Below, in pieces: positions 6,519 to 64,000 of a DNA stretch of 64,000 nt. The DNA lies in assembly GCA_030035585.1 (NCBI GenBank), contig CM057462.1, forward strand, positions 98,601,234 through 98,665,233, given 5' to 3'. The position numbers and the translations under genes are program-made. The notes below the pieces were generated by a model. That model ran no database searches. It was not told where the DNA came from and was given only the letters and a program-made list of their open reading frames with translations. The DNA is from Dugong dugon (Eukaryota > Chordata > Mammalia > Sirenia > Dugongidae). How positions within the stretch are numbered: position 1 is the stretch's first letter; the number at the start of each line of letters is the position of its first letter.

Positions 6519-7023
6519 TGTCTTAGTCATATAGTACTTCTCTAACAGAAATACCACAAGTGGATGCCTTTATCAAAGAGAAATTTATTCTATCACTGCC
6601 CAGTAGGCTACAAGTCCAAATTCAGGGCATCAGCTCCAGGGAAAGGCTTTCTCCTTCTGTTGGCCTTCTCATCAATGTTACCCCAGACTAGGAGCTTCTC
6701 TGCACAGGGACCTCAGGCCCAAAGGACGCGCTCTGCTCCTGGCACCACTTTCTTGGTGGTATGAGGTCCTCAATTCTCCACTTGCTTACTTTTCCTTTTA
6801 TTTCTTGTAAGGTAAAAGGTAGTGCAGGCCACACCCTAGGGAAACTCCCTTTACATTGGATCAGGGATGTGACCTGGATAAGGGTGGTGTTACAATCCCA
6901 TCCTAATCCTCTTTAACATAAAATTACAATCACAAAATGGAGGACAACCACACAGTTCTGGGAATCAAGGCCCAGCCAAATTGATACACACATTTTTTGG
7001 AGGACGTAATTCAAACCATGACA
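6519..7023 (-). repeat. 3' LTR of the ERVL/MaLR-type element
   Basis: 505-bp direct repeat of 8259-8763. On the minus strand it starts TGTCA and ends GACA. A polyadenylation-type AATAAA lies in its second half. Confidence 0.88.
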
Positions 7024-7691
7024 TTCCACACTTTGGCCCCCCAAAAATCACATCCTTGGAACATGGAAAACATATTCACCCCATCATATCATAGCAGAAG
7101 TCTTAACTCCAAGTCCAAAATCCAAAAATTCCTCTTCATCTGTGAAATCTAGAATACAAGTTATCTGCTTCCAAAGGTACAATGGCAGAACAGGCATAAA
7201 CTAGACATTTCCATCACAAACTGGAGAAACTAGAGGAAAAGAAGGGATAACAGACACCAAGCAAGTCAGCAGAACAGATTACATTAGCCCTCAAGGCTTG
7301 GAAAATAATCCTCTGTTCTCTGAGACAGTTTATACAATGGCCCTGCCCTCCAGACTCTAGATATCGGCCACATTCTCCAGATTCTGAGTGGACACCCCTT
7401 GGCCCTGGGCTTTAGCTCCTCCTTCCAAGCTCACTGGGACAGCAACTCTGCTCCCTCGGCTTCAGGTGCACCATTCTCCTAGTCCATCTGAGTGACAACT
7501 CCACCCTTAGAAGCACCAGAAGCCATGGCTCCACCCTTTGAAACCCCTGAGGTCATGCCATACCTTTTGAGACTGAGGCATCTGGGCTTCTTGTGTACCT
7601 TGTCTCTTCAGCTTCTGCTTCCTGTGGCCTCTCGGCCCTCAGGCATCAAACCCACATCTGCCCTGAGGGGGAAAGTGTTCCAAAGCTCTGT

Positions 7692-8060
7692 AGCTCCACC
7701 AGTAAGTGCCCGGAGGCACACCACTCCACCAGAAAGCCTTGTGTGCACAGGCACTCAGCTCTCTCACTCCGTGGGTGGGCAAGCCTAGCTCCACCGATAA
7801 GTGCCTAGAGGCACCCCATTCCGCCAGGAATCCTCTGGCGCACAGGCACTTGGCTTTCTTGCTCCATGGGTGGGCAAGCCTAGCTCCACGGATAAGTACC
7901 GGAGGCAGCCCACTCTGCCAGGAAGCCTCCAGCGCACAGGCACTTGGCTTTCTTGCTCCGTGGGTGGGCAAGCCTAGCTCCAGGGATAAGTACCGGAGGC
8001 AGCCCACTCTCCCAGGAAGCCTCCGGCACAGAGGCACTCGACTCTCCTGCCCCGTGGGTC
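7692..8060 (-). repeat. Four-unit ~95-bp tandem repeat inside the LTR element
   Basis: Units start at 7692, 7787, 7882 and 7976, with lengths of about 95, 95, 94 and 85 bp. Each begins 'agctcca' and ends 'gtgggtgggcaagcct'-like. Open frames of 130-150 codons on both strands here follow from the repeat and show no protein similarity I recognise. The related internal sequence at 59222-59330 has one unit only. Confidence 0.85.
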
Positions 8061-8235
8061 AGCTCCAGCGCCATCTTGTGCTAGTCTCCTGGTTCTGCTA
8101 CTGTTGGTTCTCTGCGGCTGCCGCTTCTCTGCCGCTGCAGGTTCTCTGCTGTTGCTAGTCCTCTGCCACTGCCGCTCCTCTATCCATTCAGTTTCAAAAC
8201 TGCTTCCACATTTTAGCTATCTGTTAGAGCAGCAC

Positions 8236-8254
8236 CCCACTCTCTCTGTACCAA
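8236..8254 (-). other. Primer-binding site, tRNA-Leu type
   Basis: On the minus strand, just inside the 5' LTR, the sequence reads TGGTAC followed by an AGAGAGAGTGGGG-like tract. This is close to the complement of the tRNA-Leu 3' end. Priming by tRNA-Leu is characteristic of ERVL and its MaLR relatives. Confidence 0.65.
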
Positions 8255-8258
8255 ATTC

Positions 8259-8763
8259 TGTCTTAGTCATCTAATACTGCTCGAACAGAAATACCACAAG
8301 TGGATGGCTTTAACAAAGAGAAATTTATTCTATCACAGTCCAGTAGGCTACAAGTCCAAATTCAGGGCATCAGCTCCAGGGAAAGGCTTTCTCCCTCTGT
8401 TGGCCTCCTCATCAATGTTACCCCAGACTAGGAGCTTCTCTGCACAGGGACCTCAGGCCCAAAGGACGCGCTCTGCTCCTGGCATTGCTTTCTTGGTGGT
8501 ATGAGGTCCCCAATTCTCTGCTTGCTTCCCTTTCCTTTTATCTCTTGTAAGGTAAAAGGTAGTGCAGGCCACACCCTAGGGAAACTCCCTTTACATTGGA
8601 TCAGAGATGTGACCTGGGTAAGGGTGGTGTTACAATCCCATCCTAATCCTCTTTAACATAAAATTACAATCACAAAATGGAGGCCAACCACATAATTCTG
8701 GGAATCATGGCCCAGCCAAATTGTTACACACATTTTTGGGGGGACATAATTCAAACCTTGACA
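8259..8763 (-). repeat. 5' LTR of the ERVL/MaLR-type element
   Basis: 505-bp LTR on the minus strand. A TATA-like GATAAAAGG lies at 8543-8535. About 30 bases further on is GGGGACCTCAT (8511-8501), the sequence with which the chimeric retrocopy at 58803 begins. That places the U3/R boundary, and so the transcription start, at about 8510. Confidence 0.88.
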
Positions 8764-12300: not shown

Positions 12301-13241
12301 TCCATTTAGGATGATATTGGCTGTTGGCTTTGTAAAAATGCCCTTAATTATGTTGAGTAATTTCCATTCTATTCCTATTTTGTCGAGAGTTTTTATCATG
12401 AATTGGTATTGGACTTTGTCAAATGCTTTTTCTGCATCAATTGATAAGATCATGTGGTTCTTGTCTTTTGTTTTATTTATGTGATGGATTACATTGATTG
12501 TTTTTCTAATGTTGATCCATCCCTGTATACCTGGTATAAATCCCACTTGATCATGGTGAATTATTTTTTTGATATGTTGCTGAATTCTATTGGCTAGAAT
12601 TTTGTTGAGGAATTTTGTGTCAATGTTCATGAGGGATATTGCTCTGTAATTTTCATTTTTTGTGATGTCTTTACCTGGTTTTGGTGTCAGGGTGATGCTG
12701 GCTTCATAGAATGAGTTTGTGAGTATTCCATCCTTTTCTATGCTCTGAAATTCATTAAGTAGTAGTGTTAATTCTTCTCTGAAAGTTTGGCAGAAATCTC
12801 CAGTGAAGCCATCCAGGCCAGGGCTTTTTTTTGGGGGGGGGGGGGGCGGGGATTTTTTTAATTACCTTTTCAATATCATCTTTTGTTGTGGGTTTATTTA
12901 ATTGTTCTACCTCTGTTTGTGTTAGTTTAGGTAGATAGTGAGTTCCTACAAATTTGTCCATTTCCTCTAGGTTTTCAAATTTGTTAGAGCACAATTTTTC
13001 AAAGTATTCTGTTATGATTCTTTTACTTTCAGTTGGGTCTGTTGTGATATCGCCCATCTCATTTCTTATACAGGTAATTTGCTTCTTCTCCTGTTTTTCT
13101 TTTGTCGGTTTAGCCAGTGGTTTATCCATTTCATTGATCTTTTCAAAGAACCAGCTTTTGGTCTTGTTAACTGTTTCAATTGTTTTTCTAGTCTCTATTT
13201 CATTTAATTCTGCTCTAATTCTTATATCCTTTCTTCTAGAG

Positions 13242-56671: not shown

Positions 56672-58044
56672 TCGAGGTGGGGCCAAGATGGCGGAGTAGT
56701 CAGACACTTCCGATGGATCCTCTCACTACAAAGACCTGAAAAAACAAGTGAATCAATTATATATGACAATCTAGGAGCCTTGAACATCAGAGGTAAAGCT
56801 GAGGAACTGGACTGAGTGGTAGGGGGAAGGAGAGACCGTTCAGAAGCAGCGAGGAGTTGCCAGACCTGACTCAGTGAGAGCCTGAGCCCTTCAGGCCTGA
56901 TCAGCTCATGGGTGAGCAGTGAGGCAGGCAAGCAGCGTGCTTGGGAGGCATATTCTGCACTGGGAGAGAACCAGCAGCAGAGAGTCTACTTGGCCATCCA
57001 GAACCAGTGAGAAGAAGCCCTCAACTGGCGAAAGATAAGTACTTGCACCCGGCCTACCATGCGGATCAAACCACCTCTCTTAGGGAAAAAACTCTCTCCC
57101 ATTTACCTCCCCACTCTCTGCTCTGCACTGGGTCCCAGACAGGTTTCAGCAATTGCCGAGTCTTCTAGGCCAGAAGTAGGAACTGTCACAAGCCCTGAGC
57201 AATTCTCCCAGCCTTGGAGAGTAAACAAATTAACAAACGGGAAACAATACACTGCTGGCTCCCCTAAGCCATGAAGCCAGGGTAGGCACAGCTCCTTTGT
57301 CTAGGCACAGGCCTAAGGAATCCACAGACTTTGAGTGTCTTTCCCCCTGCGTAGACCCATATGGGCCCATTTCAACAGTGTAGGCCCTCATTACCACAGT
57401 ACAACAGGGTATATACCTGAAGTCTAACTTCAACTGTTTAAGCTGTGAAGTGTCAGGTTTGTGACATTTGACACCGCTCTGCCTATTAAGCAGGATCTTC
57501 ACCTACACACTTCAGGGGCCTGAGAACTGGTAGATCACCCACGTCACCTAGCCACCTGTGATAAGGGCCCAAAAATAAGGGTGCCCCACAGCCCTTACAG
57601 CCAACAGCATTGGGTGCTCATAGTCTGGCTGAAAAAACCCACCCACCTTTGCGCTCTAGGGAACAGAGACACGTCTTCCTTCTGGATACTCAGAAGTGGC
57701 TGTCAGCCCCATGCCTTGCTCAGAATGTGTCCCTCTGCTGGCGAGATACCTGTCCTTACACCAATCACCCACACCTCTCTAGTACTGTAGGTGAGAGCCT
57801 GCACCACACACCTGGTAGTTATCTACTTAGGCACCTGAGCTGAACCCATACAGGAGGAGTGGGCAGACTCCTGAGCTCATATACCTAATAACAGATCTAA
57901 CCACCTGATGACAGGACATTAGCACTTCAAAGCTTCTGATAATCAAACTAGCTCACACAAGCAGCCTATTTGGGCATATCAAAACAAAACAAAAAGCTAG
58001 AACACAGTAAGCAAATGTAAAATAAATTAATGTAGTAACTTACT
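56672..58044 (+). promoter_or_regulatory. L1 5'UTR
   Basis: 1.37-kb 5'UTR with CCAAGATGG at its start. Counterpart in reverse of 16626-18005: shared phrases include 'cctgaaaaaacaagtgaatc' and 'caatctaggagcc'. Short open frames in it are not genes. Confidence 0.75.
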
Positions 58045-58788
58045 GATGGCTCAGAGACAATAGTCAATATCAAATCACATAAAGAGGCAGTCCATGATGG
58101 CTTCAGCAACCTCCCAAAATAGTCTAGAAATTTTCCAGAGGAAGAAAATTTCTTGGAAATACCAGAGGCAGAATACAAACAATTAATATACAGAACTCTA
58201 CAAGAGATTAGGAAGGAAATTAAGCAAAATGCAAAGCACACAATAGAGGAAATTAAAAAGATTAGACAGGAGCATAATGACAAATTTAACAGGCTGCAAG
58301 AATCCAAAGAGAGACAGCAATCAGAAAACCAGAAGATTAATAATAAAATGTCAAAATTAGACAACTCAATAAAAAGTCATAGGAGCAGAATTGAGGCAAT
58401 GGAAGTCAGAATTAGTGAGACAGAAGATAAAGCACTTGACACAAAATTATCTGAGGAAAAATCAGATAAAAGGAGTAAAAAAATGAAGAAACCCTAAGAA
58501 TTATGTGGGATTTTATCAAGAGGAAAAACCTACAAGTGATTGGAGTAAAAAAGGGGGGCAGGGGATAACAGAAAATACAGAGAGAATTGTTGAAGATTTG
58601 TTGGAGAAAATTTCCCTGATATCATGAAAGATGACAAGGTATCTATCCAAGATGCTCATCGAACCCCACATAAGGTAGATCTCAAGAAAGTCACCAAGAT
58701 ATAATCAAACTTGCCAAACCAAAGATAAAGAGAGAATTTTAAGAGCAGCTAGGGATAAATGAAAACTCATCTACAAAGGACAGTTAAC

Positions 58789-58802
58789 AAGAATAAGCTC
58801 AG
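58789..58802. repeat. TSD of the chimeric retrocopy (left)
   Basis: AAGAATAAGCTCAG, exact match to 62290-62303. The preceding 'agttaac' gives a TT/AACA-type cut, close to the L1 endonuclease preference TT/AAAA. Confidence 0.92.
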
Positions 58803-59051
58803 GGGACCTCATACCATCAGGAAAGCAGTGCCGGGAGCAGAGCGCGTCCTTTGGACCAGGGTCCCTGTGCCGAGAAGCCCCTAGTCCAGGGAAACACTGA
58901 TGAGAAGGCCAAGAGAGAGAAAGCCTTCCCCTGGAGCTGACACCCTGAATTTGGACTTTTAGCCTATTTTACTGTAAGGAAATAAACTTCTCTTTGTTAA
59001 ACCCATCCACTTGTGGTATTTCTGTTATGGCAGCACTAGATGGCTAAGACA
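58803..59051 (+). other. R-U5 part of an ERVL/MaLR-type LTR
   Basis: Collinear with the minus-strand LTR at 8510-8259: 'gggacctcataccatcagga', 'gcagagcgcgtcctttgg', 'ggaaataaacttctctttgt', ending 'gatggctaagaca'. No U3 precedes it. Confidence 0.88.
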
Positions 59052-59447
59052 GAATTTGGTACCGAGAGAGTGCGGTGCTGCTCTAACAGATACCTAAAAT
59101 GTGGAAGTGCTTTTAAAACTGTGAATGGATAGACGTGCGGCAGTGACAGAGAACCATCAGCAGCAGAGAAGCAGCAGCAGCAGAGAACCAACAGCAGGAG
59201 AACCAGGACACTGGAGAAAGATGGCGCTGGAGCCGACCCACAGAGTGAGGGAGCTGAATGCCTGTGAGCAAAAAGCTTCCTGGAGGAGTGGGGTGCTCTG
59301 GGCACTTACCGGTAGAGCTACTGAGCTTTGGAACACTTGCCCCAGCAGGGCAGATGAGGGCGTGAGGCCTGAGGGCCGAGATGCCATAGGAAGCAGAAGC
59401 TGAAGAGACAAAGGACACAAGAAGCTGAGCTACCTCCGTCTCAAAAG
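59052..59447 (+). other. Internal LTR-element sequence used as first-exon continuation
   Basis: Follows the LTR exactly as in the intact element: TGGTACCGAGAGAGTG primer-binding site at 59058, 'ctaaaatgtggaagtgcttt', 'gaaagatggcgctggagc', 'gaagcagaagctgaagag', ending 'gtctcaaaag'. It has one copy of the ~95-bp unit that is repeated four times at 7692-8060, plus a short CAG-rich stretch at 59155-59200. Confidence 0.85.
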
Positions 59448-60541
59448 GTTCCTGGCCTTGACTCTGTGGAGAGTGTATCTCCTGATCTCAGTCATGCTAC
59501 TTGGGCGTGTTATTATGCAAATAATAAAGGATATGATTTTGTCAAGAACGAGAGGTGCACAGTTGTGGAGAAGCCTCATCGAAAGCTGGGAAGTTATCAA
59601 TTCCAAACCAGATGAAAGAGCCAGACTCAGCCACTGTATTGCAGAATTATGGATGAACTTCAGCATCTTTCTGCAAGATATGTCTGTTTTTAAACAGCAG
59701 AGCCCTGGCAAGTACTGTTTGCATTTTTGTGTTCATTGTTTAAGTGTAACGATATTGGACAAAAACTATACAACAAAATCAAGTCAGTTCTGTTGAAACT
59801 AGACTTTGGAATTGGGGAATATATTAATCAGAAGAAACGTGAGAGATCTGAAGCAGATAAAGAAAAAAGTCACAAGGATGACAGTGATTTAGACTTTTCA
59901 GCTCTTTGTCCTAAGATTAGCCTCATGGTTGCTGCCAAAGAATTATCTGTATCTGACACTGACTTATCAGAGGCATCCTGGACCGATAACGGGACCTTCA
60001 ACCTTTCAGAAGGATAAACTCCACAGACGGACACATCTGACGATCTTGACCGACCTAGCGAACAGGAAGCTTTCTCTCTCGAGAACTTTCAGAATTTCCA
60101 TGTCTAGAAAATGGCATGGGAACAAATGATGAAGACGAATTAAGCATTGGCTTGCCTGCTGAGCTCAAGAGAAAAAAAGAACAGTTGGACGGTGGCCACA
60201 GAACGAGCAAAGAGAAGCAGTCAGCAGCTGGTCTCACCCTTCCTCTGAACAGTGACCAAGCCTTTCGCTTGATGAGCAACCTGGCTGGGGACGTCATTAC
60301 AGCTACAGTGACTGCTGCTGTCAAAGACCAGTTAGAAGGTGTGCAGCAAGCAATTTCTCAGGCTGCACCCAGCCTATGAGAGGACACAGACACTGAAGAA
60401 GGAGATGACTTTGAACTACTGGACCAGGCAGAGCTTGATCAAATTGAGAGTGAATTGGGACCTACACAAGACCAGGAAGCAGAAGCACAGCAAAGTAAGA
60501 AGTCTTTAGGCTTCCTTTCCAATCTCCTGGGAGGCCATTAA
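59448..60541 (+). pseudogene. RETREG1: RETREG1 (FAM134B) processed pseudogene, coding part
   Basis: RETREG1 is an ER-phagy receptor. Its reticulon-homology domain bends ER membrane and its C-terminal LIR binds LC3/GABARAP. The copy starts within the first hydrophobic hairpin ([20 protein letters not shown]), which from memory is about residue 108 of the human protein. The N-terminal acidic/proline-rich part is therefore absent, as expected if transcription bypassed exon 1. It continues through [20 protein letters not shown]. About 80 nt of the second membrane hairpin are missing near 59720, which shifts frame. It resumes as [20 protein letters not shown] and [18 protein letters not shown] frameshift or stop lies near 60017-60110 and a TGA at 60377. 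The LIR core DDFELL is at 60404-60421, and the end is LLGGH plus TAA at 60541. No introns. Not functional. Confidence 0.93.
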
Positions 60542-62272
60542 CCCAGGAATCGGCTTGCAACAGAACACAGATAAACCATCAAAAAATTTCAAACACGCAA
60601 AAAAAAAGGAAAAAAATTTGAACTGAGCTTTAATGATTACTTTAGATTTTTTTTTTTGTCTTACTTTCCCTTCTGCAGTGAATTAATTGGATATATATCA
60701 GCTGTCACTGATAGATGGATACTTCCGATAGTTATTTTTACATAATAAGCATGGAAAGGAACTTTATATATATATATATGTACATACTGTGTTGTCAGAG
60801 ATGAATATTAGAGGCTGTTTTTAAAACAAAAAGAAAAAAAACCTCACCAAATTATTGAGATCCTCCTGTAAGTATTCTTTATTTTTTCTTTACAATAACT
60901 TTTCAAGCATGCAGAACAGTTTATTGTAACCCACTGAAGAATAGCAACAATTAATTGTGAATACTTGCTGTATCAGTGCCCTAGTTCCTAATACTTGGAA
61001 ACAAAACAAAACTTTTGGTAGACTCTGATGTAAAAAGACGAAAATGATCAAAGTATCTTTAGTCAAAAGACTTGGAAAATACTATCAAAATGAATTTCCT
61101 AGGAAAATTAAAAAATATGTATATTTAACTACTTTGAATAGGCTGATTGATACATGTCCATATTATTTCTGCAGTTGTAGACTTAGACTTACTTGTAAAG
61201 TGGCATGCTCTGTTGACTGCCACCTCTAGTCTTGCAGTGGGTAACATTAACCCAGGGCAAGCAAGTAGTTGTACCTTACATAGACAGTAGTTATGATGTG
61301 AACAGATTCTGCTGTATTTTGTTGTTCATTATCATATGCTTGTAATAGGGACGTTATCAGTGCAGATCTCTTCTGCCTGCTCAGACCCAGCTTAAACCCT
61401 CCTCTTTTATATTACATTATGGGAAAAGTCTCCTACAATTGTGAAACTAATTCCTAATGTATTCTATGAGTGATGTGGTCATCAGCAGTAGAGAAACAAC
61501 AGGCTTGTTTTCCTAGTATGTATAGATAGAGGAGAGGAACTTGTTTGGCTTTAAAGTATATTTATTTGCCATTTGTCTAAATAGGTAATCTGTTTTTTAT
61601 TGGGAAGCTAGACTATATCTCTTCCTTTATTTTAAACTTTTTAGATCACCTTTAAATAACCACATTTGGCTTGCAGTTTTTAACTAAAAAGCAGAAATCA
61701 AGCTAATTCTGTGATTCATGATTATAATACAAACATTTTGTAGTGTTGAGGGACCATGTCAGCAACTACCCAAAATTTCTCAGATCTTTGGGTACAGCTG
61801 GGGTTTCTACAGACATGAACATCTGAGACCCTCAGAAAGGAAGGATAATCCAAGGACAGAGGAAATCGTTTTTCCCTTCCCTTCCATTTAACCCTTCTTA
61901 TATTTCTGAAGACTCATTATAGGTAACCTGACATTTTAATGCAGCATCTCTTATTTATTTTTTCTTTCTGAGGTATTAAAATATCTAGACTGAATTGTGC
62001 CAAATGTTAAAGGGAGAAAAGTTACTGAGGACTTTGAACACCTGCATTTTGTGATTGGACACTCATGCTTCTGTGTCATTAGTGCCTGGTGACTGTGTTT
62101 GATGTCCTTTGTTGATATAAAGTGAGCCTGTGCCTTCATTATCTTCCCCATTTTGGTACAAATGAAAGCTTGGTATTAGATCTTTGAACTGCGTGGATTT
62201 TGGAGGAATATACCTGAATTCCATTCAATCAGAGTTTCTGGGCATGAAGAAAAATACAGTCACATATTTATT
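60542..62272 (+). pseudogene. RETREG1: RETREG1 3'UTR part of the retrocopy
   Basis: About 1.73 kb between the RETREG1 stop and the A tail. AT-rich, with a (TA)n-like stretch at 60764-60783. It has no recognised interspersed repeats and ends 'cacatatttatt' before the A run. Assigned as 3'UTR by position and by the tail and TSD, not by a sequence comparison. Confidence 0.8.
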
Positions 62273-62289
62273 AAAAAAAAAAGAAGAAA

Positions 62290-62303
62290 AAGAATAAGCT
62301 CAG
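62290..62303. repeat. TSD of the chimeric retrocopy (right)
   Basis: AAGAATAAGCTCAG, exact pair of 58789-58802. L1 ORF1 sequence resumes directly after it. Confidence 0.92.
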
Positions 62304-62966
62304 ACTACTTAGAAGAAACCATGAGGCAAGAAGGCAATGGGATGACATATATAAAGCCTTGAAGGAAAATAATTGCCAGCCAAGAATTATATATCCAGCA
62401 AAACTGTCTCTCAAATATAATGATGAAATTAGGGCATTTCCAGATAAACAGAAGTTCAGGCAATTTGCAAAACCCAAACCAAATTTACAAAAAATACTAA
62501 AGGGAGTCTTCTGGTTAGAAAATCAGTAACATCAGGTAACAACCCAAGACTAGAACACAGGATAGAACAAAGCGGTATCAACCCAGATAAGGAAGTCACA
62601 AAAATAAATCAAAGTTAAAACACTGAAAATAGGGAAACAGAGATGTCAATATGTAAAAGATGACAACATTAAAACAAAAGAAAGGGACTTAAAAAATGTA
62701 CAGATAGATTTTTCATATGAAGAGGAAGTCAAGGCGATATAAAGAAATAAAAGACTAGTATAAACTTAGAAAAATAGGGGTAAATATTAAGGTAACCACA
62801 ACGGAAACTAACAATCCTACAAGTCAAAATAAAAAACGAGAAAAACATAAAGACTCAGCAAATGCAAAATCAACAACAATGAAAAAGACGAAAAGAAAAA
62901 CGACTCAGCACAGAAACTTAAGTGGAACAAAGAAACTGTGAACAACACACGAAAAAAGACATCAAA

Positions 62967-64000
62967 ATGACAGCACTAAACTCATACCTATCAATAATTA
63001 CGGTCAATGTAATTGGACTAAATGCACCAATAAAGAGACAGAGAGTGGCAGATTGGATAAAAAAAATGATCCATCTGTATACTCTCTACAACAGACACAC
63101 CTTAGACTTAAAGACACAAACTAAAACTCAAAGGATGGAAAAAAATATATCAAGCAAGCAACACTCAAAAAAGAGCAGGAGTGGCAAAAGTAATCACTGA
63201 TGAAATACACTTTAAAGTGCAATCCACCACAAAGGATAAGGAAGGACACTATATAATGATTAAAGGGTCAATACATCAGGAGGATATGACTATAATAAAT
63301 ATTTACGCACCCAATGACAGGGCTCCAAAATACATAAAACAAACTCTATCAGCATTGAAAACAGAGACAGACAGCTACACAATAGTAGTAGGAGACTTCA
63401 ACACAACACTTTCGGTGAAGGACAGAATGTCCAGAAAGAAGCTCAACAAAGACATGGACGATCTAAATGTACAATCAACCAACTTGATCTCAGACGTATA
63501 TACCAAACACTCCACCCAACAGCAGCCAAGTATGCTTTCTTTTCCAATGCACATGGAACACTCTCCAGAATAGACCATATATTAGGCCATAAAGCAAGCC
63601 TTCACAAAATCCTAACAATTGAAATATTACAAAGTATCTTTTCTGACCATAAAGCAATAAAAGTAGAAATCAATAACAAATTCATAGAAAAACAGTACCT
63701 ACCTAAACTAATAGAAACAGAGGTAGAACAACCAAATAAACCTATAACAAAAGAAAAGATTGAAAAGGTAATTAAAAACCTTCCAACAGAAAAAAGCTCT
63801 AGCCTGGATGGTTTCACTGGAGAATCCTACCAAACTTTCAGAGAAGAGTTAACACCACTACTACTAAGGTACTTTAGAGCTTAGAAAAGGATGGAATAAT
63901 CCCAAAATCATTCTAAGAAGCCAGCATAACCCCGATACCAAAACCAGGTAAAGACACCACAAAAAAAGAAAATTACAGACCAATATCCCTCATGAACACT
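62967..64000 (+). pseudogene. L1 ORF2 (endonuclease and start of RT), damaged, runs off window
   Basis: Starts MTALNSYLSIITVNVIGLNA at 62967, after a spacer of ~440 bp from ORF1. The endonuclease is readable in two overlapping frames to about 63670: VQSTTKDKEGHYIMIKG, INIYAPNDRAPKYIKQTL, VVGDFNTTLSVKDR, then the SDHKAIKVEI region at about 63640. Directly after this, at about 63690, the reading jumps to the YLPKLIETEVEQPNKP segment, which in the L1 at 39185-43010 lies roughly 215 codons further on. So ~650 nt of linker are deleted here. It then continues toward the RT ([20 protein letters not shown]). Confidence 0.82.

Follow-up and report, generated by a model that had tools for sequence, protein, structure and literature searches.

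A dugong retrocopy most probably preserves a long terminal repeat-initiated mRNA spliced to RETREG1 exon 2

RESULTS

We analyzed a 64,000-nt stretch of the Dugong dugon genome (hereafter the window, to which all coordinates refer), in which long terminal repeat (LTR) sequence and sequence of RETREG1, an endoplasmic reticulum (ER)-phagy receptor gene, lie together in one insert within an older repeat. Features are on the plus strand unless stated otherwise. The insert spans 58803–62289, including an A-rich tail (62273–62289), and is enclosed by two exactly matching copies of a 14-bp target-site duplication, AAGAATAAGCTCAG, at 58789–58802 and, adjoining the tail, at 62290–62303. When both strands were scanned, this sequence was present at exactly these two places in the window, and of 2000 random pairs of window stretches (30 and 40 bases long), one had a shared run of at least 14 bases. 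The surrounding repeat is one that we take to be an L1. Its 5′ side (56801–58802) is 82% identical to 17876–15868 on the minus strand; on its 3′ side (62304–64000), the first 1375 bases are 85% identical to 15864–14511 on the minus strand, and the next part is 82% identical to 12957–12624. The paralogous copy of this repeat runs on into a reverse transcriptase open reading frame (ORF) at 12861–12073 (Pfam RVT_1, E 3.5e-29). Pfam left the repeat ORFs at 58123–58497 and 16670–16299 unnamed, the former giving sub-threshold matches only.

Both of the aligned paralogous repeat copies run uninterrupted through the insertion point, with 58802 joined to 62304 and the duplicated bases present once. This empty site was seen in paralogous copies within the window. 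Together, the 14-bp duplication (usually about 7–20 bp), the A-rich tail, the loss of introns, and the empty site are those of an L1-mediated processed pseudogene. At the inner join between the LTR and RETREG1 parts (59447/59448), the longest run in common with either flank was 5 bases in 30- to 40-base stretches, and no second duplication was found. Because an exact duplication surrounds the whole unit, none lies at the inner join, and the paralogous repeats hold the site without the insert, 58803–62289 is one L1-type insertion. An earlier note on this DNA had placed both parts within one exact 14-bp duplication and one A tail, and had named separate duplications around the two parts as evidence to the contrary. 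The first arrangement was confirmed, the second was absent, and the coordinates given proved correct to the base, with 59447/59448 as a splice junction.

These observations bear directly on the possibility of two independent, adjacent insertions, one of an LTR fragment and one of a RETREG1 retrocopy. Another element of the LTR family does occur in the window, but there is a single duplication around both parts, and the paralogous empty sites contain neither. Moreover, a solo LTR would bring a U3 region, whereas the copy instead runs from the cap site to a splice donor, as described below. We rejected separate insertions, which the flanks contradict and to which we give next to no credence.

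The first part of the insert (58803–59447) is an LTR-derived first exon consisting of R-U5 (58803–59051, ending AAGACA) and 396 nt of internal region ending CTCAAAAG. As a yardstick, we used a complete related LTR element on the minus strand at 6519–8763, with a 5′ LTR at 8763–8259, an internal region at 8258–7024, and a 3′ LTR at 7023–6519. Its two LTRs are 505 bp each and 94% identical (TGTCA...AAGACA), and its 5-bp flanks (caccc/cacac) agree at four of five positions. This short element is non-coding, with no long open sense frame (the longest sense stretch between stops is 139 codons), and it is presumably ERVL/MaLR-like. The motif TTGGTACA after its LTR has a counterpart, TTGGTACC, in the retrocopy. 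Three main pieces of 58803–59447 matched the yardstick at 80, 84, and 85% identity (8510–7564 plus 6769–6519, minus strand). Two weaker matches, at 77 and 72%, fell on further units of a 94-bp tandem array (3.9 units, 8059–7691) in its internal region. The retrocopy holds a single unit, so array length varies within the LTR family, and this difference from the yardstick indicates that the source was another copy or subtype.

Both ends of the LTR part coincide with predicted transcription and splicing signals of the yardstick. The first bases of the retrocopy align to GGGGACCTC, with GGGGACC at 8511/8510, 31–32 nt past the first base of GATAAAA at 8542. When the first 300 nt of the yardstick were scanned with four TATA-like patterns, this GATAAAA was the only match. 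The 5′ end of the retrocopy thus falls at the predicted LTR cap site (start site 8511). U3 is absent because the copy begins at this predicted site, in agreement with the earlier description of an LTR piece without U3. At its other end, the LTR part stops with CTCAAAAG, where the genomic yardstick continues GTATGG. This CTCAAAAG/GTATGG donor (7563, minus strand) ranks first among the 133 GT sites of the element, with a score of 4.45 against 4.20 for the runner-up in the 3′ LTR. We placed the donor side from BLAST pieces, as the MAFFT alignment across the tandem array was poor. The source element presumably shared this donor with the yardstick. Within the LTR exon, an ATG at 59221 (context AAGATGG), which the genomic element shares, starts a 60-codon frame; this frame is in register with that of RETREG1 but ends 44 nt before the junction.

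The ends of the insert also bear on a retroviral-type route, in which RETREG1 mRNA would have been retroposed by LTR machinery with switching in a virus-like particle. An LTR-mediated route exists, though L1 is dominant in mammals (PMC5408686), but the model outlined in that source gives new copies LTRs. Here, there is neither a U3 nor a 3′ LTR, but rather a 14-bp duplication and an A tail. Since its ends contradict LTR-mediated retroposition, we rejected it as exceedingly improbable.

The gene part of the copy has no introns. It comprises RETREG1 exons 2–4 (59448–59712; Pfam PF24456), the decayed coding part of exons 6–9 (59713–60541), which reaches the GGH stop, and a 3′ untranslated region (UTR) part (60542–62272), which was assigned from its location after the RETREG1 stop and ahead of the A tail. 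Decay in 59713–60541 is evident from stops at 60015–60017 and 60377–60379 and a frameshift near 60080; this stretch runs through what we take to be the LC3-interacting region (LIR) motif. The first of four pieces matched Pfam RHD_RETREG1-3 with an E value of 7.2e-23, and the second piece was weak and below the cut-off. A search with the read-through protein returned 771 proteins; among the 120 listed, the best were dugong and manatee RETREG1 (86%) and Asian elephant RETREG1 (83%). A PDB sequence search with the piece at 59694–60017 gave no RETREG1 chain. The Pfam match and the 86% identity to dugong RETREG1 over the joined query bear out the earlier claim of intron-less RETREG1 coding sequence with a 3′UTR. 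A scan of 62150–62289 for five polyadenylation hexamers found no AATAAA. AATACA at 62253 is a possible hexamer at the usual distance, and ATTAAA at 62270 extends into the tail.

Exon boundaries were taken from human numbering. One variant is numbered both 873 and 960 in PMC4931577, so the mRNA number equals the coding sequence (CDS) number plus 87, an offset that is consistent with Ser153, Thr208, Glu340, and Leu347 in the same source. The mRNA limits that it provides (408–514, 546–672, and 673–757, with an exon start at 758) then become CDS limits of 321–427, 459–585, 586–670, and 671. Exon 2 would begin at mRNA 408 (CDS 321) and exon 4 would end at mRNA 672, and the 265 nt of exons 2–4 in the copy equal the length derived in this way. 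Because c.321G>A is reported as p.W107X (PMC12435581), CDS 321 is the third base of the W107 codon. In the copy, 59448 is the G at this third position and F108 begins at 59449, with GTTCCTGG as the predicted exon 2 start.

We also examined the residue before the FLALTP motif (F108) in the 120 listed homologues. Among the 87 that matched the pattern, it was W in 80, R in five, M in one, and E in one; the other 33 did not match, and one further model starts at F108. All four residues can be encoded by a G-ending codon, which fits different first exons joining at that G. Differing leaders are likewise joined at RETREG1 exon 2 in models from rabbit, wolf, dolphin, and degu (P0041, P0045, P0085, and P0105), suggesting that this exon frequently serves as acceptor for alternative first exons.

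At 59712/59713, exon 4 is joined to exon 6. The copy lacks exactly 85 nt compared to dugong RETREG1, and human exon 5 (mRNA 673–757) is 85 nt long. In four models from other mammals (P0039, P0064, P0082, and P0104), extra residues follow SPGK and place the exon 4/5 limit at the same point. For exons 6 and 7, the alignment used an assumed split that is absent from the limits drawn from PMC4931577. A chance 85-nt deletion was considered in place of exon 5 skipping and rejected, as both edges coincide with derived exon limits. The exact length of exons 2–4 and the exact loss of exon 5 indicate that the source RNA was spliced from an intron-containing gene.

Two other explanations would account for the inner join without an LTR promoter acting on RETREG1. 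In one, L1 reverse transcriptase changed template from RETREG1 mRNA to LTR-element RNA in the course of insertion, the two RNAs never having been joined beforehand. PMC13174262 describes both template switching and RNA ligation in L1 chimeras, and the join has 2–3 nt common to both sides (GGT). However, template switching needs a chance landing on the best donor of the related element (1 of 133 GTs) and on the first base of exon 2, plus a run exactly back to the cap site. Given the several coincidences demanded, splicing is preferred for the join, and we regard template switching as very unlikely. In the other, an LTR-element transcript made elsewhere was trans-spliced to RETREG1 pre-mRNA and then retrocopied, which would yield the same splice-exact junction; yet trans-splicing is rare in mammals. 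Cis- and trans-splicing are both named as possible for spliced L1 chimeras (PMC13174262), but LTR-initiated transcripts number in the thousands in mouse oocytes (9,961; PMC13408016), and trans-splicing seems to us no less improbable than template switching.

Skipping of exon 5 has consequences for the encoded protein. The frame shifts after K195: when the RETREG1 frame is read from the first ATG (59494), it terminates at 59796, 100 codons later. Nine ATGs in the LTR exon precede it, these counts being those of today's mutated sequence. As its sequence stands, the copied mRNA cannot encode the LC3-binding C terminus, and the source RNA probably made no working protein. Thus, the exon 5 skip, the frame shift, and the nine upstream ATGs argue that a truncated ER-phagy receptor was probably not made from the copied mRNA, contrary to the N-terminally shortened RETREG1 protein proposed earlier.

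To place the copy among its relatives, we used a 14-row protein tree with a support mark of 95, in which hyrax RETREG1 is absent from the rows. The copy groups with dugong RETREG1, manatee RETREG1, and a dugong RETREG1-like model, P0076, with support of 93/90, and its end branch is 0.057, compared to 0.0025 for dugong and 0.015 for manatee. Two alignment states, N (column 141) and S (column 382), are confined within the 14 rows to the copy, dugong, manatee, and P0076. At column 348, the copy and P0076 have T, whereas dugong and manatee have A, which suggests, weakly and from a single site, that copying preceded the dugong/manatee split. The copy also matches aardvark at columns 62 and 323, probably by chance. 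From these placements we infer the date of retrocopying, and a copy made in stem Sirenia is most likely, being the simplest reading.

DISCUSSION

Taken together, we estimate with a probability of roughly 0.9 that this insert is a single retrocopy of an LTR-initiated mRNA that was spliced to RETREG1 exon 2, with exon 1 replaced. This reading follows from a 5′ end at the TATA-predicted start, an LTR part that ends at the best donor, and a gene part that runs from the first base of exon 2. As in LTR-initiated transcripts, the 5′ end falls at a predicted cap site and an internal-region donor is joined to a host exon acceptor. The core of the earlier note therefore stood, in that start, donor, and exon 2 junction all point to one retrocopy of an LTR-started mRNA with exon 1 replaced, but its protein claim did not survive the exon 5 skip and the frame shift.

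In such a scenario, a paenungulate, most likely from the sirenian stem, would have carried an ERVL/MaLR-like LTR element in sense orientation upstream of RETREG1 or in its intron 1. RNA polymerase II would have started at the LTR cap site, and the transcript would have run through R-U5 into the internal region before splicing from the CTCAAAAG/GTATGG donor to the RETREG1 exon 2 acceptor. Exon 1 would have been left out and, in the copied molecule, exon 5 would have been skipped as well. The polyadenylated mRNA would then have been copied in full by L1 machinery in the germ line into an old L1, producing the 14-bp duplication and the A tail. The LTR was presumably in cis at the RETREG1 locus, and inheritance of the insertion implies that the chimeric RNA would have been expressed in germ cells.

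Several points weigh against this interpretation. The position of the LTR in cis is an inference from the retrocopy. A protein search with the LTR leader gave 28 candidates, none at E ≤ 1, and no listed protein had an LTR-coded leader. The donor ranking depends on the human splice-donor weights used, and the exon limits are our own derivation from published human variant coordinates. The offset of 87 fails for c.660/Glu163 and for c.319 and c.352, which are placed in exon 5 (PMC4931577). A table in PMC12435581 assigns c.321 to exon 1, and other labels there (c.1426 as exon 7) also misfit a nine-exon gene. The bottom-strand endonuclease site, ATTCTT/GTTAAC, is an approximate match only to the TT/AAAA type. 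Finally, the sirenian grouping lies below the 95 mark, and no starred set contains the copy.

The dugong model P0076 offers a second candidate. This low-quality RETREG1-like model lies outside the window, on a contig that differs in length from that of RETREG1. A leader of 39 residues comes first, and the RETREG1 homology sets in precisely at the start of exon 2. P0076 is a decayed copy and retains exon 5, so it would represent another splice form, inserted separately. The model splice at its exon 2 start needs a preceding AG, which the LTR–exon join has, whereas a normal mRNA copy has TG before the G. The leader had no relative but itself at E ≤ 1 (three candidates), and its match to the window was no better than E 0.54. 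P0076 is possibly a second LTR-chimeric retrocopy. A tentative idea, which we consider rather unlikely, is that stem sirenians stably produced the LTR-driven RETREG1 transcript in the germ line and that it was retrocopied more than once.

LTR-driven transcripts are normally known from the RNA of living tissue, and gonad RNA of the sirenian lineage has hardly been studied. A full-length retrocopy preserves one LTR-driven RNA molecule from its start site to its poly(A) end, along with the donor and exons that were used, and this one would record past LTR promoter use on RETREG1. A simple prediction for the sirenian RETREG1 locus follows from it. It also opens a search route for other fossil LTR–gene mRNAs, which would show up as retrocopies with an LTR, running from cap site to donor, as their 5′ part. 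By title and abstract opening, we found no report of a retrocopy of an LTR-initiated host mRNA in the literature covered, which leaves out most subscription journals. A fossilized LTR-initiated mRNA this complete is unusual, while its components are of known kinds and reflect known processes in an unusual combination.

The closest known counterparts are the LTR-initiated transcripts of oocytes and early embryos (MaLR, MERVL, and RLTR10), which likewise start in an LTR and splice to a downstream host exon (PMC13408016; PMC6102241). Those of mouse RLTR10 also combine LTR initiation with a donor in the internal region, whereas mouse MaLR transcripts are described as frequently using donors inside the LTR (PMC13408016), from which the MaLR-like element here differs. 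Elephants are known to carry ERVL and MaLR elements (PMC11359688). Such transcripts have been recognized from the RNA of living species, while the RNA here is known from an ancient genomic copy alone. LTRs also supply promoters or exons to retrocopy-containing genes, as described in PMC2584115 with flanking or intergenic sequence.

With processed pseudogenes, the copy shares its lack of introns, 3′UTR, A tail, target-site duplication, and decayed frame, but it differs from them in having an alternative first exon derived from an LTR at its 5′ end and in skipping one internal exon. The spliced PALLD– and CREM–L1 chimeras are likewise fusion transcripts that end at a splice donor or exon junction and were inserted by L1 with a duplication and a tail, and splicing before L1 insertion has been proposed for the PALLD and CREM exons joined to L1 (PMC13174262). 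In those cases, however, host exons feed L1, whereas in the present copy a repeat promoter feeds a host gene, and the copied RNA contains no L1. FAM134B-2, an N-terminally truncated RETREG1 isoform, likewise has an alternative start, through which the N terminus is lost together with a portion of the reticulon domain (PMC12435581). Short isoform models (P0086 and P0094) diverge just before W154 at exon 4 and stay in frame to the C terminus. Unlike FAM134B-2, the copied mRNA enters at exon 2 and loses frame at exon 6.

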